Assembly: GCF_015351235.1 (NCBI RefSeq)
Contig: NZ_JADKSJ010000001.1
Coordinates: 310,001-374,000, forward strand
DNA from: Plantibacter sp. VKM Ac-2880
GTDB taxonomy: Bacteria > Actinomycetota > Actinomycetes > Actinomycetales > Microbacteriaceae
Direction of reading: 5' to 3'
Length of the DNA: 64,000 bases
Part shown: piece after piece, positions 31,100-59,575 of the stretch
Layout: each line of letters starts with the position of its first letter
Numbering within the stretch: the first letter of the stretch is position 1
Made by a program: the position numbers and the translations under genes
The notes under the pieces: generated by a model
What the model was told of the DNA's origin: nothing
Database searches by the model: none
Seen by the model: only the letters and a program-made list of their open reading frames with translations

Positions 31100-32440
31100 T
31101 CAGATCCCGGTGCGCATCCAGCCGCTCGTGCGTGCGCGGAGTCCGAGCGTGGTCGCTCGTGCGCCGAGGTATCCGACGAAGAAGGCGAGGGCCAACCAGG
31201 TGAGGCCGGCGGATCCGCCGGGGCCCCAGGCGAGGACGGCGAGGGCGAACGGGAGGAACACGACCGTGTTGAGCAGGCCGGTGATCGCGAGGTACTTCGC
31301 GTCGCCGGCGCCGATGAGGACGCCGTCGAGGACGAACACGATGCCGCCGAGCGGCGTGGTGACGGCGAGCACGATGAGCGCGGGCACGATCAGGGCTGCG
31401 AGCTCGGGGTCGCTCGTGAACACGAGCCCGATGATCGGGCTCGCGAGCGCGACGGCGAGGCCGAGGATGATCCCCGACCCGACCCCCCACTGCAGGCATC
31501 GGACGAGGACGGCGCGGACCCCGCCCACGTCGCCCGCACCGAGACCTTTGCCGACGAGTGCCTGGGCGGCGATCGCGAGGGCGTCGAGTGCGAAGGCGAG
31601 GGTGGCGAAGAGCGTCATGACGAGCTGGAAGCCGGCGAGTTCGTCGGTGCCGAGGTCGGTCGCGACGAACACGGCGATCAGCATCGCCGCGCGAAGGCTG
31701 ACGGTGCGGAGGAACAGCCAGCCACCGGAACGGGCCGCTCCGCCGAGCCCGGCGCGGTGCGGGCGCAGGCTGGCCCCGGTCCGTCGTGCGTGGCGCAGGA
31801 CGACGACGAGGTAGGCGACGACCATGCCCCACTGGGCGATGACGGTGCCGATGGCCGAGCCGGCGATCCCGAGGCCGAGACCGTAGATGAAGAGGAAGTT
31901 GAGGCCGATGTTCGCGGCGAACCCGGCGCCGGCCACGACGAGGGGTGTGGTGGTGTCCTGGAGGCCGCGCAGGAGACCGGTCGCGCCGAACACGAGCAGC
32001 ATCGCGGGGATGCCGAGCATCGAGATGCCGAGGTAGGTGTCGGCCTGCTGGGCGACGGCGTCGGTCGCGCCGAACAATCCGACGAGGGTGGGGGAGAGGA
32101 ACCAGCCGGCCGCTCCGATCACGACACCGAGGCCGAGTGACAGCCAGAGTCCGTCGACGCCGAGCGAGACCGCGCCGCGTTCGTCGCCGTGGCCGAGTCG
32201 GCGGGCGACCGCCGGGGTCGTCGCGTAGGCGAGGAACACCATGAGCCCGATGATCGTCTGCAGGACCGCGCTCGCGACGCCGAGGCCGGCCAGCGGCACG
32301 ACCCCGAGGTGCCCGATCATCGCCGAATCGGCGAGGAGGAACAGCGGCTCCGCCATGAGCGCTCCGAGCGCCGGGACCGCGAGCCGGAGGATGTCGCGAT
32401 CGACCGGCCGGAGTCGTCGTTTGTCCTGTCCCGTGGTCAC
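31100..32440 (-). CDS. MATE-family efflux transporter (DinF-like)
   Basis: 446-residue membrane protein with about 12 helices. Both MATE half-domains are visible: PALGALMAEPLFLLADSAMIGHLG at the N-terminus and ALDALAIAAQALVGKGLGAGD at the start of the second half. It exports cationic or other drugs in exchange for H+ or Na+. The GTG start at 32440 lies 9 bases after the stop of the DedA-fusion gene. No Shine-Dalgarno is present, but TAGGCT ends 6 bases upstream, so a leaderless internal transcript is possible as well as read-through. Confidence 0.93.
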   Translation of the reverse strand: MTTGQDKRRLRPVDRDILRLAVPALGALMAEPLFLLADSAMIGHLGVVPLAGLGVASAVLQTIIGLMVFLAYATTPAVARRLGHGDERGAVSLGVDGLWLSLGLGVVIGAAGWFLSPTLVGLFGATDAVAQQADTYLGISMLGIPAMLLVFGATGLLRGLQDTTTPLVVAGAGFAANIGLNFLFIYGLGLGIAGSAIGTVIAQWGMVVAYLVVVLRHARRTGASLRPHRAGLGGAARSGGWLFLRTVSLRAAMLIAVFVATDLGTDELAGFQLVMTLFATLAFALDALAIAAQALVGKGLGAGDVGGVRAVLVRCLQWGVGSGIILGLAVALASPIIGLVFTSDPELAALIVPALIVLAVTTPLGGIVFVLDGVLIGAGDAKYLAITGLLNTVVFLPFALAVLAWGPGGSAGLTWLALAFFVGYLGARATTLGLRARTSGWMRTGI

Positions 32441-32446
32441 CCGCCG

Positions 32447-32452
32447 AGCCTA
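32447..32452 (-). promoter_or_regulatory. Possible -10 box for leaderless MATE gene
   Basis: TAGGCT on the minus strand overlaps the TAG stop of the upstream fusion gene and ends 6 bases before the MATE GTG start. Confidence 0.35.
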
Positions 32453-35398
32453 GTCGCGGCCACCGACGCGCCCACCCGGGTCGTCGGACAGCGCTCCGGA
32501 CCGCCCGTCCGGCTCCCGCACGAGGAGCGAGCCGCTCAGCGCGGGGAGGTCGCGGAGGCGGATGCCGGTGAGGAACCCGGCGGCTGCGGCGTAGGCGACC
32601 CGCGGCTGGTCGGCGTCCTCACGGCAGGCGAGGAACAGCGGGACGTGCGTGGCACCGAGGCGTCTGGCGACGGCGGCGATCTCGGCGAAACCGTGGAGCG
32701 GATCGACGCGGTGGGCGATGCCCGCCACCGTGCGCACGGCGACACCGTCGGGCTCCGAACCGTCCCGCGCCAGGCCCGACGCCGCGAAGGAGACCGTCGA
32801 CGCCCCCTCCGCGGCGAACCGACGGCAGGCGTCGGTCAGCGCCCGTTCGACGGCGCGACTGAGCTGAGAGGAGGACGGCGTGTCGGGACCGTCTGCGGTG
32901 TCGGGCGTCACCGCGCGCAGGACCGTGTCGAGGGCCCAGCCGCCGACCGTGCCGCCGGGTCCGGGCATCGGCAGCCACGTCAGTGCCGCCAGCACCGCAC
33001 CGCGGGCGTCGGTCACGACGGAGCTGCGAGCCACCGCCTGACCCTGCCCTGCGCCACGGGCGGTCTCGACACTCGCGCCCACGGTGAGACCCAGTTCGGG
33101 CACCCGCCGGTCCGAGACCCACACCGAGGTCAGCGCGCGGATCTGGCTGCGCAGCTCCCAGGGCAGCTCGTCCGACGGCAGCAGGATCGATGACCACGCG
33201 GGCTCCGCGGCAGGACCGTCGCCGGCCGGATCGCTGGCGTCGGCGCCCGAGTCGTCCACCGCAGACAGCTCGAGCACGAGGTCCCGCCCGAGCGGCGACA
33301 CACGCCACCCATCGGGAACGACACTCGGCTCCCGCACGGCGAACGCGGCCGGGGTCAGCCCCGCCTGCTCGGCCGCCGCCGCGAACGCCAGCACCGCGTC
33401 TGAGGCGCCATCGCCTGCGCCGATCGGTTCACCGAGTGCCAGGGCGACGCCCGCGTGCTGTTGGTAGACCACTGCGTGGCCGCCGTCGGCCGTGATGAAG
33501 ATCCGGTTCTCCGGTCGGAGCGCCGATGCCGACAACGGTCCGCCGCCGTCCTCGCGGAGCAGTTCCGCGGCCCGCGCCCTCGCTCGCCGTGCCCCCGGCC
33601 CGACCGCGCCGGGGAGTCGCCGCCTGGTCTGGTTCGCCGCCACCCGGAACGCGTGCCGCGAGAGCACCAGCGCCACCGCCTGCCCCACCCAGAGCACGCT
33701 CGCCGAGATCCAGATCGTCGACGCCACGAGCGGCACCATCGCCAGCCACGTGAACGCGACGAGTGCGAGGGTCGTGAGCAGGTTGCCGACGGTCAGGACC
33801 ATCGCCGCCCACCACGCCCAGCGATGTCCGCGCCGGAGCCAGTTCGCGATCAGCAGGATCGCCACCGTGTCGAGCCCGACGTCGAGGATGGACTCCTGCG
33901 TCAGCGTGGTGGAGCCGAGCGGTCCGTCGAGCGGCAGGAGGGTGACGAGCAGTTGCACCGCGCCGATGACGAGCAGCCCGGCGACCGCGAAGAGCCGCCA
34001 ATCCCGCATCGTCGGTCGCGGCGTCGAACGGTGCTCCCCGATGAGGAGTCGGGCGACGACGACGAACACGACCGTCGCGATCCAGTGCTCGAGGTCGTCG
34101 ATCTTCCCGACGTAGAGGAGGGCGATCGACACCCACGACAGCAGGAGAAGTCGCCAGCGCAGCCGGTACGGGGACCGCATGAAGGCGGTGGCTGTGGCCA
34201 CACAGGCGAGGATGCCGCAACTCGGGCCGACGTCGAGGGCCGTCGCGAGCGATTGCGCCCACGGCCAGTCGAGCTGCGCCAGCGCGGTGGCGGCCCCGAG
34301 CGCGCCGAGGATGCCGACGAGGTGCCCGGACAGGAAGATCGCCGACGCCCGCAGGGTGCCGAAGCGCGCCTCGACCCAACCGCCGAACACCGCGGCGCCG
34401 AGGATCGCGATGAGGTAGGTGAGCGGGTCGGCGGTGATGAACATGCCCGTGAGGACCGTCCACCAACGACCAGCCTCGAGACTCGGGACCCCGTAGGCGA
34501 ACGAGGGGTACCAGGCGGCCTGGTCGATCGGGCGCCACAGCCCGCCGGTGACGACCCCGAGCACGACGAAGACGGTGACGAAGGCGGCGGTCGCCGGTGT
34601 CGTCCTGAGTGCCCAGCGCAACGGGGTGAAGACCGCGGCGATCGCTGCGCGCAGGTCGGTCCGGACGGGAGCGGCGCTGGACGGCGGCGCGGTCGGAGGG
34701 TTCCGCGGGGCCGCCGGCGCGAGGGCCGCCGAGCCGGACGGCGACAGCAGCTCGTCGAGCTCGGCTTCGGTCAGCGAGACCGGGGTGCGCTCCTCGACCG
34801 GCCGGGCGGCGCGCCGACGTGCGCGGAAGACGAGGACGACGGCGATCACGACCGCAGCCGCACCCGCGAGGGCGAGTGCCGCCCAGGAGAAGCGGTGGAG
34901 GAACTCGGTCGCCGCACTCCCGAGCAGCGTCACCACGGTGACGACGAGCGATGCCCAGGCGATGCCGCCGGCGGCGTTCGCGAGCAGGAAGTGCGGGTAG
35001 GTCATGCGGAACATGCCCGCCAGCGGCCCGGAGAAGATGCGGAGGACGGCGATGAACCGTCCGACGAACACCGCCCACGGCCCCCAACGACGCATGAGGT
35101 GCACCGCGGCACCGAGCCGTTTCGGCCCCACCTGCTTCGGGAACCGACGGTTGAGAACCGAGAGGAGTCGTCGCCCGTAGCGCTTACCGATCCAGTACCC
35201 GACCGAGTCGCCGAGGATCGCCCCTGCCGCGGCGGCCGCTGCGACGAACACGGGGTTCAAGCCGCTCGTCGCCGCGAGGAGCGTCGCGCCGATCAGGACC
35301 GTCTCGCCCGGCAGGGGGACGCCGAGGCTCTCGACCGCGACGACCAGGAAGACGACCAGCAGGAGGACTCCGGGCGGGAACTCGGACAACCAGTCCAC
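32450..35398 (-). CDS. Three-domain DedA - rhomboid-like - DUF2156 (LPG synthase C-like) fusion membrane protein
   Basis: 982 residues in three parts. (1) Residues 1-195 form a DedA/VTT domain: ESLGVPLPGETVLIGA (23-38) and GRFIAVLRIFSGPLAG (113-128) match the conserved DedA motifs; DedA proteins translocate membrane lipids such as undecaprenyl phosphate. (2) After a Pro/Ala linker, about 265-460 looks like rhomboid: RWWTVLTGMF, WVEARFGTL, then GPSCG with Ser393 and His438 in a later helix, matching a Ser-His dyad. More helices follow to about 580. (3) About 615-960 is a soluble GNAT-like DUF2156 domain, as in MprF lysyl-phosphatidylglycerol synthases. The GTG start at 35398 follows GGAAGGAG. 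Lipid aminoacylation plus flipping is my inference; see findings. Confidence 0.85.
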   Translation of the reverse strand: MDWLSEFPPGVLLLVVFLVVAVESLGVPLPGETVLIGATLLAATSGLNPVFVAAAAAAGAILGDSVGYWIGKRYGRRLLSVLNRRFPKQVGPKRLGAAVHLMRRWGPWAVFVGRFIAVLRIFSGPLAGMFRMTYPHFLLANAAGGIAWASLVVTVVTLLGSAATEFLHRFSWAALALAGAAAVVIAVVLVFRARRRAARPVEERTPVSLTEAELDELLSPSGSAALAPAAPRNPPTAPPSSAAPVRTDLRAAIAAVFTPLRWALRTTPATAAFVTVFVVLGVVTGGLWRPIDQAAWYPSFAYGVPSLEAGRWWTVLTGMFITADPLTYLIAILGAAVFGGWVEARFGTLRASAIFLSGHLVGILGALGAATALAQLDWPWAQSLATALDVGPSCGILACVATATAFMRSPYRLRWRLLLLSWVSIALLYVGKIDDLEHWIATVVFVVVARLLIGEHRSTPRPTMRDWRLFAVAGLLVIGAVQLLVTLLPLDGPLGSTTLTQESILDVGLDTVAILLIANWLRRGHRWAWWAAMVLTVGNLLTTLALVAFTWLAMVPLVASTIWISASVLWVGQAVALVLSRHAFRVAANQTRRRLPGAVGPGARRARARAAELLREDGGGPLSASALRPENRIFITADGGHAVVYQQHAGVALALGEPIGAGDGASDAVLAFAAAAEQAGLTPAAFAVREPSVVPDGWRVSPLGRDLVLELSAVDDSGADASDPAGDGPAAEPAWSSILLPSDELPWELRSQIRALTSVWVSDRRVPELGLTVGASVETARGAGQGQAVARSSVVTDARGAVLAALTWLPMPGPGGTVGGWALDTVLRAVTPDTADGPDTPSSSQLSRAVERALTDACRRFAAEGASTVSFAASGLARDGSEPDGVAVRTVAGIAHRVDPLHGFAEIAAVARRLGATHVPLFLACREDADQPRVAYAAAAGFLTGIRLRDLPALSGSLLVREPDGRSGALSDDPGGRVGGRD

Positions 35399-35534
35399 GC
35401 GGGCTCCTTCCGACCGGTGCGTCAACGGTAGTCCCTCACCTGTCGACCCACGTCCGACACCGCTCCACCGGTGGTGGACCCGAGCCGTCGTCCAGCTCTG
35501 AGAGAACTCCCGTCCCGTCGTCAGGAGCCGTCGC

Positions 35535-35540
35535 TAGGCT
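35535..35540 (+). promoter_or_regulatory. -10 box of leaderless M13 peptidase promoter
   Basis: TAGGCT, then 7 bases, then ATG at 35548. The nearest AGGAG is over 20 bases from the start codon, too far to serve it. Confidence 0.5.
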
Positions 35541-35547
35541 GAACCGC

Positions 35548-55962: not shown

Positions 55963-57003
55963 ATGGCAACGATGCGTGACGTCGCGCGGCTCGCCGGAGT
56001 CTCCGTCGCCACCGTCTCGTTCGTCGTCAACGACTCGAAGCCCGTGTCCCCGGCCACCCGCCTCCGGGTCGAGTCGGCCATGGTCGAGCTGGACTTCCGA
56101 CGGAACGCGGTCGCCAGGGCGCTCGCGAGCCGACGCACCCGCATGATCGCGCTGCTCTTCCCCGTCCTGCAGCACCGACTGTCGGACACCGCGGCCCGCT
56201 TCTTCACCGGTGCCGCCGAGGCGGCCTCGGAGCTCGGGTATACCGTTGTCCTCTGGCCGGAGCCGAGCGACCCCGGAGCGCTCCGTGAACTCACCTCGGA
56301 CGGCCTCATCGACGGCGTGATCCTCATGGAGGTGCGGCTCGACGACCACCGGGTCGACAGGTTGCTGGCGGCGCGGACCCCGCTGACGCTCATCGGCCGC
56401 ACGCGCGACCCCTCCGGCCTCGACTACGTCGACGTCGACTTCGAAGGCATGGTGGAGCAGTCGATCGACCGGCTCCAGGAGCTCGGGCATCGGGAGTTCG
56501 TCCTCGTCGAAGAGGTGGAACGCGAGGGGCTCGACGGCTACGGCCCGGTCGTGCGCGTGCAGGAGACGTTCCACGCCGTCTGCGACGAGCGCGGCCTCCG
56601 CGGCCGGACCCTCCGGTGCGCCCCGGATCCCGCCGGCGGTCGCGCGCTCGCGGCGACCCTCGTGGCCGAGGCCCCCGAGGTCACGGCGATCCTCGTCCTC
56701 AACGACCGGGCGGCCCTCGGCCTCGTGAGCGAACTCGGCAAGCTCGGCGTCTCGATCCCGGATGAGCTGTCCGTCGTCCTCATCGGCTCGACGCGCGAGG
56801 TGTCGGAGGCGGCCGATCCGGCGCTCGCCGTCACACTGCTCCCCGCAACGGAACTCGGACGCATGGGCGTGGAGACGCTCGTCGGCCGCCTCGACGGCAC
56901 GCTCGGCGAACTCCGCCACGAGCTCGTGAAGGGTCCGTTCCTCGAAGGCGAGTCACTCGCTCCGCCGCCGGTGGCGAACGGGCGAGCCCGGCTCAGCGGC
57001 TGA
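55963..57003 (+). CDS. LacI-family transcriptional regulator
   Basis: 346 residues. The HTH starts almost at once (MRDVARLAGVSVATVSFVVND, residues 4-24), followed by hinge RNAVARALASRRTRMIALLFP and the effector domain with LSVVLIGSTREVSEAADPALAVT. The start is ATG at 55963 after GCGGGGAC. It is the likely repressor of the divergent operon. Its 3' end overlaps the convergent DUF2156 gene by 11 bases. Confidence 0.93.
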   Translation: MATMRDVARLAGVSVATVSFVVNDSKPVSPATRLRVESAMVELDFRRNAVARALASRRTRMIALLFPVLQHRLSDTAARFFTGAAEAASELGYTVVLWPEPSDPGALRELTSDGLIDGVILMEVRLDDHRVDRLLAARTPLTLIGRTRDPSGLDYVDVDFEGMVEQSIDRLQELGHREFVLVEEVEREGLDGYGPVVRVQETFHAVCDERGLRGRTLRCAPDPAGGRALAATLVAEAPEVTAILVLNDRAALGLVSELGKLGVSIPDELSVVLIGSTREVSEAADPALAVTLLPATELGRMGVETLVGRLDGTLGELRHELVKGPFLEGESLAPPPVANGRARLSG

Positions 57004-59575
57004 GGGTGCGGACGAGCGCGATGGCCTCCTTCGGGGAGACGTCGGGGAGGTAGGCCTTGCCGACGGCCGTGCCGATGAGCGGGAGCGCGAGCGGGTCCGA
57101 GTAGGTCATGTAGATGGTCTCGTACGTCGGGTTGAACTTCGCCTTGAACCGGAACAGCGAGGAGAACCCGTAGGCGGGCTCGAGGGTCTTCGCGAGGAAG
57201 TCCATCAGGCGCGTCATCGCGGTCGCCGGCGGCGGCGTCTCACCCGGCCGGAGCGGTTTCGTGGCCAGCGGAGCGCCGGAGAGCGACAGCACCTCGACCC
57301 CCGTCTCGCGCATGTGCAGCGCGGCCGAGGCGATGAGGAACTCCATGACCCCGTTCAGGCTGCCGTCGGCGCGGCGCATGAAGTCGATCGTCCACCCGAC
57401 GACGCGCCCGTCGCGGTAGGACGGCAACCAGCTCGTGATCGCCTGCAGTCGTCCGTCGGGCCCGATCGCGAGCATGAGGGCGACCTCCGGGTCCTTCAGC
57501 TCCTCCACGGCCCCGAGCGTGAAGCCCATCTCCGGGAGCTCCTTCTCCGCCACCCACTGCTCGGAGATCGACGTGATCTCGTTGACCATCGCCAACGGCA
57601 GCTCGTCCCAGGTGGTCCAGAGCGTCGTCAGCCCCTCCTTGATGCCACGGTTGAGGGCCTGCCGCACCTTCTGCCACGGCTTCCCGGTGAGCTCGAAGGT
57701 CGGCGGGTGCATGAGGGTCTCCTCGCCGACCGACATGACCTGCCAGTCGAGCTCCGCGAACACCGGCAGGTACTGCTCGTGGACGCTGTAGAACACCGGG
57801 ATCCAGCTGTTCGCGTCGCAGAACTCGGCGAACCCGCGGATCGTGGAGCGGCCGTCGGACCCTGGCGCGATCGGATCGGACATCGTGATCGCGATGCCGT
57901 TGATCACCCGGTACGCGACCGCGCTGCGGCCGTCGTCGGCGAACCAGTAGTCGTTGCCCGGCCAGGTCGCCATGAACCCCATGGTGCCGCCGCCGCCCTG
58001 CTTGAGGAGCTGCCGGATGCGGGCGCCGTCCCCCTGGTGCGTCGCCGGTCCGGTCGCGGCGAACAGCCGGAGCATCGCGAGCAGGAACACCGCCCAGAAG
58101 ATGGGGCCGACCCACTCGAACGCGAACACGGTGAGCCCGTCCGTGGGGAAGGTGGGGCTCCCGAGCGAGCCGAGGAACACCCCGGGCAGGAACCGGCGAG
58201 GCACGTCGGACAGGAGGGTGTCGACACCCGCCGGCTCCGGGAGGAACGTGGCGCGGTTGATCCACCCGATGAGCAGCTCGCCGACGAGCAGTACGACGAA
58301 CGCGAACACGACGGTGAACACGAACTCGCGACGGGCGTCACGGGGCGCACGCACTTGGAAGTGCCGGCGCTGCGCGATGAGCAGCAGGGCGAGCGCCAAC
58401 GGGACGACGAGCGCGGCGGCACCCCACAGCAGGATCTCCCACAGGTCCGTCCCGTTCTGGTCGAAGCGGAGCGCGTACACGAACGCGAACGCGCCGATGA
58501 CGGCGAGGGCGAACTTCACGACGATCGTGAGGATGAGCGCGAACCGCCGGCCGTTGCGCAGGCCGATCGCCGCGACGACGAGGAGCACGAGCGGCACGAA
58601 GGTCAGCACGAGGGACCCCGTCCCGGCCTGGCTCGCGATCGCGATCTCACGGTTGCACTCGTCGGTGAAGCTCGCTGCGCAGCGGCCCATGACCTCGTCG
58701 TAGTCCGGGACGGTGTCGCTGAACACGTTCCCGAGGTAGGAGAGCAGGCCGATCGCGTTGGGGGAGATGATCGAGATGAGCGGCCCGATCGCCGACACCG
58801 AGATCGTCGCCGCCAGCAGTGTCCTCGTCTCCTGGTGCGAGCTGCGGTTCCAGCGGGTGCGCTGCCGGCCCAGGGCCCGCGCGAGCACCCGCCCGAGCAC
58901 GAGCCCGAGCATGGCGGCGATGAGCCGGTACACGTCGGTCGTGTCGCCGTTGTAGAGCACGAACATGAGGATGAACCCGATCGTGATCACCCGGATGCGT
59001 CGTCGCCAGAGGGGGAGGGCGAAGGCGCTCGCCGCGAGCAGCGCACCCACGATGCCGACGAAGGGGTCGAGCGTCAGGTCGAGCTCCACGGTGATCGCCC
59101 AGAGTTCGCCGATGGCGGCCCCGATCGCCTGCAGGCCGATGCCCACGAGCGTGCCGGCCACCCCGAGGACGAGGAAGATCCAGAGGGTGCGCCGCGAACC
59201 CATGAGGCGTTCGGCGACCCCGAGCAGCCCGACGGCGCCGAGGACGGCGAAGACGAGTTGGAAGGGGTCCCAGGCGATGACCAGGGCGCTGAGCGGCGTC
59301 CACCAGTGCCCGGCCTGGACGGTCGTCGCGAACCCGGCGGCCCACTGCTCCTGGACCGCCGTCGAAGCGGGTCCGGTCGCCGTGCCGGTCAGGACCGCGA
59401 GGACGAGGATGATCGCTGCGAGCCCGAAGCTCACGGGCGTCCCTCGGACGAACCGGACGGCTGACGCCTGGAAGCCCGCGAGCCGTGCGGCGGTGCGTGA
59501 TCGCCGCGACTCCGTCGATGTCGTGCCCGTCGCTGTGGGAGGTGCGCCCGTCCCCGGTGTCTCGCTCGAGCTCAT
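56993..59575 (-). CDS. Rhomboid-like membrane protein with C-terminal DUF2156 domain (MprF-like)
   Basis: 860 residues. The N-terminal helices resemble rhomboid (GHWWTPLSALVI at 89-100, ERLMGSRRTLWIF), but the catalytic motif reads GIVG (174-177) in place of GxSG and the His position is occupied by YR (216-217), so it is a pseudo-rhomboid. More helices follow to about 510. A GNAT-like DUF2156 domain (about 525-850; GFMATWPGNDYWFADDGRSAVAYR, KPWQKVRQALNRG, DFMRRADGSLNGVMEFLI) resembles lysyl-phosphatidylglycerol synthase C-termini. The start is ATG at 59575 after GGAAGGG. It parallels the fusion at 32450-35398 but lacks DedA. Confidence 0.88.
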   Translation of the reverse strand: MSSSETPGTGAPPTATGTTSTESRRSRTAARLAGFQASAVRFVRGTPVSFGLAAIILVLAVLTGTATGPASTAVQEQWAAGFATTVQAGHWWTPLSALVIAWDPFQLVFAVLGAVGLLGVAERLMGSRRTLWIFLVLGVAGTLVGIGLQAIGAAIGELWAITVELDLTLDPFVGIVGALLAASAFALPLWRRRIRVITIGFILMFVLYNGDTTDVYRLIAAMLGLVLGRVLARALGRQRTRWNRSSHQETRTLLAATISVSAIGPLISIISPNAIGLLSYLGNVFSDTVPDYDEVMGRCAASFTDECNREIAIASQAGTGSLVLTFVPLVLLVVAAIGLRNGRRFALILTIVVKFALAVIGAFAFVYALRFDQNGTDLWEILLWGAAALVVPLALALLLIAQRRHFQVRAPRDARREFVFTVVFAFVVLLVGELLIGWINRATFLPEPAGVDTLLSDVPRRFLPGVFLGSLGSPTFPTDGLTVFAFEWVGPIFWAVFLLAMLRLFAATGPATHQGDGARIRQLLKQGGGGTMGFMATWPGNDYWFADDGRSAVAYRVINGIAITMSDPIAPGSDGRSTIRGFAEFCDANSWIPVFYSVHEQYLPVFAELDWQVMSVGEETLMHPPTFELTGKPWQKVRQALNRGIKEGLTTLWTTWDELPLAMVNEITSISEQWVAEKELPEMGFTLGAVEELKDPEVALMLAIGPDGRLQAITSWLPSYRDGRVVGWTIDFMRRADGSLNGVMEFLIASAALHMRETGVEVLSLSGAPLATKPLRPGETPPPATAMTRLMDFLAKTLEPAYGFSSLFRFKAKFNPTYETIYMTYSDPLALPLIGTAVGKAYLPDVSPKEAIALVRTLSR

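Follow-up and report, generated by a model that had tools for sequence, protein, structure and literature searches.

Lysyl/alanyl-phosphatidylglycerol synthase/flippases of the MprF type comprise a C-terminal double-GNAT synthase fold behind a polytopic membrane part, which is a flippase domain. In Staphylococcus aureus MprF (SaMprF), K547, K621, E624, D731, R734, and K806 are required, and K806 and E624 are indispensable (PMC2774229). Fusions of a DedA domain with the soluble domain of MprF are stated in a 2025 MprF paper citing Roney and Rudner (2023), and it was argued from these fusions that the DedA and MprF transport domains are perhaps interchangeable (PMC11980842). Actinobacterial MprF-like synthases with non-MprF membrane parts are represented by mycobacterial LysX, with a lysyl-tRNA synthetase, and LysX2, with four transmembrane (TM) helices, and DedA or rhomboid modules have been described in neither (PMC8974105). 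Furthermore, the DedA/UptA undecaprenyl-phosphate flippases of COG0586, whose acidic and Arg residues are essential in the Escherichia coli and Bacillus subtilis proteins, are mostly single-domain proteins, and the reported fusions are with rhodanese and PAP2 (PMC10127716).

The gene described here lies in a window of 64,000 nucleotides (the whole stretch of DNA analysed) from Plantibacter sp. VKM Ac-2880. Its product shares the double-GNAT fold with MprF, although DedA and rhomboid modules stand where MprF has its flippase domain and the catalytic residues are lost; like LysX and LysX2, it is an actinobacterial MprF-like protein with a non-MprF membrane part. As in COG0586 proteins, its VTT domain retains all essential acidic and Arg residues. 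The DedA and MprF-type synthase domains are shared with the DedA–MprF soluble-domain fusions as the citing paper presents them, from which the Plantibacter protein differs by its degenerate synthase. The idea of the fusion is already known because such fusions are stated, at least in the citing paper (PMC11980842), whereas no description of the rhomboid module or of the dead synthase came up in the open-access papers covered, an incomplete body of text in which DedA with DUF2156, DedA with MprF and rhomboid, and rhomboid with phosphatidylglycerol lysyltransferase gave no match. Among open-access texts mentioning both rhomboid and MprF, none concerns such a fusion in the portions examined.

The fusion gene is one uninterrupted ORF running from 35398 to 32450 on the minus strand, within an open frame spanning 32450–35425. 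GTG 35398 is the likely translation start since the first in-frame start codon falls exactly there in five of the seven Plantibacter orthologues; a TTG nine codons 5′ of it is a possible alternative. The features of the locus are as follows.

32450..35398, minus strand: DedA–rhomboid–LPG-synthase fusion gene (synthase probably a pseudoenzyme), 982 aa, GTG start; from the ORF, Pfam, and orthologue starts.
34811..35398, minus strand: DedA/VTT domain, residues 1–196; VTT_dom E=1e-17, motifs, pN/pS 0.059.
34616..34810, minus strand: variable linker, residues 197–261; pN/pS 0.45, low pLDDT.
34016..34615, minus strand: rhomboid domain, residues 262–461; PF01694 at 24.8 bits (isolated region), GlpG fold.
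34220..34222, minus strand: Ser393 of DVGPSCG, at the N-terminus of helix 393–405; conservation and model helix limits.
34085..34087, minus strand: His438 of DDLEH, within helix 433–453; distributed as Ser393, both lost in one genus.
33626..34015, minus strand: four extra TM helices, residues 462–591; model helices 464–487, 503–522, 526–553, and 557–579.
33266..33598, minus strand: first GNAT half of the LPG-synthase fold, residues 601–711; E624 equivalent is Arg705.
33191..33265, minus strand: hypervariable segment in place of the GKxWxxVRxxxNR block, residues 712–736; pN/pS 0.90 (0.65–1.27).
32546..33190, minus strand: second GNAT half, residues 737–951; K806 equivalent is Ala911 and R734 equivalent is Leu827.
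56993..59575, minus strand: type C LPG-synthase paralogue with intact synthase motifs; PF09924 E=2e-80.
31100..32440, minus strand: MATE gene directly downstream of the fusion; PF01554, linkage unconserved, outside the system.

The proposal of the preliminary description, that a single chain of 982 residues combines DedA, rhomboid-like, and MprF-type parts, is borne out by the ORF, Pfam, and an AlphaFold2 model. With the whole protein, Pfam supports VTT_dom at 65.1 bits (curated cut-off 33.9) and LPG_synthase_C at E=2e-9, the latter as a partial match over 198 of 298 profile positions; Rhomboid scores 21.9 bits, just below its cut-off of 22.6, which the isolated region passes. Homologues of the same architecture from genus g94 and Subtercola pass all three Pfam cut-offs. 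The model, built from 59 sequences (pLDDT 82.9, pTM 0.75), recovers the GlpG fold at residues 264–457 (5f5k, Z 17.0, rmsd 3.2 over 170 residues) and the fold of the MprF soluble domain at residues 601–960 (Z about 27). Despite the strong fold match, the rhomboid alignment had no hit in a PDB sequence search, and the DedA part retrieved only low-complexity noise there; DedA is thus assigned from Pfam and motifs. The NCBIfam model bifunc_MprF matches residues 610–699 only (991-aa numbering), at 23.2 bits against a cut-off of 600, and an MprF flippase domain was not found in this search.

The catalytic residues of the synthase domain were compared between seven Plantibacter fusions (type A) and 44 proteins comprising the other fusions (type F) and two forms without DedA that occur in many more genera, i.e., rhomboid–LPG-synthase proteins of about 700 aa (type B) and a divergent type C of about 830–860 aa; the S. 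aureus residues were mapped via B. licheniformis LPGS, residue spacing, and a 51-sequence alignment. Neither K547 nor K621 is kept in any of the actinobacterial types, and both are uninformative. The E624 position is Arg in all seven Plantibacter proteins and Glu or Asp in 43 of the 44 others, and the K806 position, Lys in 44/44, is Ala or Thr in 7/7. Furthermore, Gly, Lys, and the first Arg of the GKxWxxVRxxxNR block are present throughout types F, B, and C (44/44), and a hypervariable linker takes the place of this block in every Plantibacter protein (7/7). Over the second GNAT half, proteins of types F and B share identities of 0.60–0.71 with one another, whether of the same or of different type, and Plantibacter proteins share 0.27–0.28 with either. 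The MprF-type transferase-like domain that had been recognized is present as a double-GNAT LPG_synthase_C fold (Pfam and model), although its degradation had been missed: as judged from these residues, the Plantibacter domain is probably a pseudoenzyme without lipid modification activity. An altered chemistry is conceivable, D731 being retained in 7/7 and R734 in 5/7. The type C gene of the window, 22 kb away, is the only other PF09924 gene of this genome and its only intact one.

In the DedA domain, E23, E32, D64, and both Arg residues of the re-entrant-loop motif GRFxxxxR (GRFIAVLR here) are intact. The acidic pair of the first re-entrant loop and the Arg pair of the second are kept in all seven Plantibacter proteins and, according to the motif table, in nearly all fusions. 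One fusion, in G009 (L158 3747–6401), represents a reciprocal decay, in which both essential DedA Arg residues are gone (to His and Ser) and the synthase motifs are intact. Six other VTT proteins are encoded in the genome studied here, and the DedA role of the fusion may be redundant with them.

Constraint was estimated as pN/pS across seven Plantibacter species, with 95% bootstrap ranges. The DedA domain has the lowest value (0.059), followed by the rhomboid domain (0.121), the extra TM helices (0.155), the first GNAT half (0.219), and the second GNAT half (0.353, range 0.278–0.438), which is significantly below 1. In the five species that possess an intact type B paralogue, the fusion scores 0.412 over the second GNAT half and the paralogue 0.026. 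These values suggest that the transferase half is relaxed and still retained as a folded domain, whereas DedA is held as strictly as an active enzyme. Relaxation of the second GNAT half stops short of neutrality (0.28–0.44), so the domain still does something.

On balance, the Plantibacter protein is considered, with moderate confidence, to be a DedA lipid transporter on a rhomboid scaffold, in which a pseudo-synthase has been retained as a regulator or structural partner; transport, lipid, and regulation are all inferred, whereas the architecture, the pattern of conservation, the missing synthase residues, and the constraint on each domain were observed directly. The ancestor would have been MprF-like, combining a membrane module of rhomboid origin with a cytosolic lipid aminoacyltransferase that depended on aminoacyl-tRNA. 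In some Microbacteriaceae, an N-terminal DedA lipid transporter would have been added to it, and in Plantibacter the aminoacyltransferase would have become a folded, retained pseudoenzyme. DedA would be the working part, most likely moving an anionic lipid (undecaprenyl phosphate or phospholipid) across the membrane via its conserved acidic and Arg re-entrant loops, and the rhomboid and pseudo-synthase modules would serve as membrane platform and regulator, respectively; the Ser393–His438 dyad of the rhomboid may still be active. As the rhomboid domain is likewise under constraint, the main function may lie elsewhere than in DedA.

In a different reading, the protein is an intramembrane serine protease whose Ser393 and His438 cut a membrane protein under regulation by the DedA and pseudo-synthase modules. 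The Ser393–His438 pair noted in the preliminary description is indeed present in the rhomboid-like domain: the GxSx serine opens its helix in the model and the TM6 histidine lies inside its own, at the sites expected of a rhomboid dyad. Both residues are invariant across all A and F fusions, occur in 23 of 27 type B proteins, and are also found in G427, a member from another family, and the fold itself matches a rhomboid at Z about 17. In the four type B proteins of genus g18 (L180–L183), the two dyad residues and D389 of the DVGPS motif have all disappeared, with the synthase intact; this joint loss, in the one genus that loses either dyad residue, is consistent with a working dyad. GlpG-type rhomboid proteases share the six-TM fold, the GxSx serine, and the His with the fusion, but they have an oxyanion His/Asn that the fusion lacks, and the module of the fusion lies between two lipid-related domains. 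The oxyanion-hole residues His150 and Asn154 of GlpG correspond in an ungapped motif alignment to Thr and Ala in the fusion protein and are variable in the family. Moreover, the type C branch has dropped the dyad (the paralogue at 56993–59575 has a rhomboid-derived TM region without Ser or His) and retained the synthase, and the dyad is therefore dispensable for the common function; there is no substrate candidate either. A proteolytic role is hence rather unlikely for the Plantibacter protein. Distinctly less likely still is a single-chain lipid-responsive device, in which an intramembrane serine protease would sit between a DedA transporter and a pseudo-aminoacyltransferase that makes no product any more but would act as a sensor of lipid (or tRNA) controlling cleavage or flipping.

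The relaxed constraint on the second GNAT half is also what would be seen if the C-terminal domain, or the whole gene, were being lost. In one Subtercola strain, Subtercola sp. Z020 (L049 2460–5320), the reading frame shifts inside an ACAGC-type repeat tract of the linker, so that the DedA part and the rhomboid-synthase part lie on two overlapping ORFs; the shift is either real slippage or an assembly error. However, the ORF is intact in seven species at a pS of about 0.28, the DedA domain is held at low pN/pS, the second GNAT half remains significantly below 1, and the C-terminal fold is still predicted with good confidence; decay of the gene is accordingly improbable.

The suggestion that DedA supplies translocation for a modified lipid would make the protein an MprF analogue against peptide antibiotics, in which an active synthase makes an aminoacylated lipid that the DedA domain of the chain then flips. 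The architecture fits, the idea is sound for the family, since DedA–MprF-synthase fusions have been read likewise (PMC11980842), and Subtercola and g94 homologues retain both synthase and DedA residues, to which such a role plausibly applies better than to the Plantibacter protein. In the latter, flipping of a lipid that it makes itself is very improbable because the synthase lacks its catalytic residues in 7/7 proteins, the substrate-site block has become a hypervariable linker, and constraint is relaxed more than tenfold relative to the intact paralogue of the same species.

The fusion gene is present in all seven sampled Plantibacter genomes, and the order DedA–rhomboid–LPG-synthase in one ORF also occurs in Subtercola and three other Microbacteriaceae genera (G009; G101 and G215; G115). 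A contig scan with DedA peptides as patterns gave 80 loci, for the most part DedA genes standing alone, and contained the fusion in Plantibacter and Subtercola only. A profile of the A/F/B rhomboid module has strong matches in Microbacteriaceae and just one outside the family in a phylum-wide sample of 198 genomes. In the core tree, Plantibacter proteins form a single clade on a long branch and the remaining fusions fall mostly together (84/87 support), with G115 separate, a topology compatible with both one and two origins of the DedA fusion. The unusual architecture is the sole point in favour of an assembly or sequencing error joining separate genes, a concern raised in the preliminary description, and this origin is rejected as practically negligible, since single-ORF fusions recur in 7/7 Plantibacter and in independent genomes of four other genera.

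The neighbours of the fusion in Plantibacter are MATE on one side and a divergently oriented M13 peptidase gene on the other, and neither was found beside the fusion in the other genera. The MATE pump had been taken as a hint of envelope defence; this link is not supported, and the gene was rejected as a functional partner because the two genes adjoin only in Plantibacter, where the linkage is interrupted in two or more of the seven genomes. In P. flavus, a cassette of 3.6 kb lies between them, and in another species they are several hundred bp apart. The P. flavus cassette (L190 10941–14239) comprises four tandem, similar lipoprotein-like genes, encoding proteins of about 225 aa with CVxGPTEMPTPEIVWDRG, and an upstream 191-aa gene, and it resembles an array of immunity genes. 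On the other side, the fusion and the divergent M13 peptidase gene face away from each other in all seven Plantibacter genomes, and the short intergenic stretch between them (35399–35547) may contain a promoter region common to both.

Taken in the context of the family, the membrane half of MprF-like enzymes is modular and is provided by an MprF flippase, a DedA domain, or a rhomboid domain. In natural variants, one module is dead and another is retained: Plantibacter has a dead synthase, G009 lacks the DedA Arg pair, and both type C and genus g18 lack the dyad of the rhomboid. Such variants allow testing of which part transports lipid and of whether the rhomboid domain serves lipid rather than protein chemistry.
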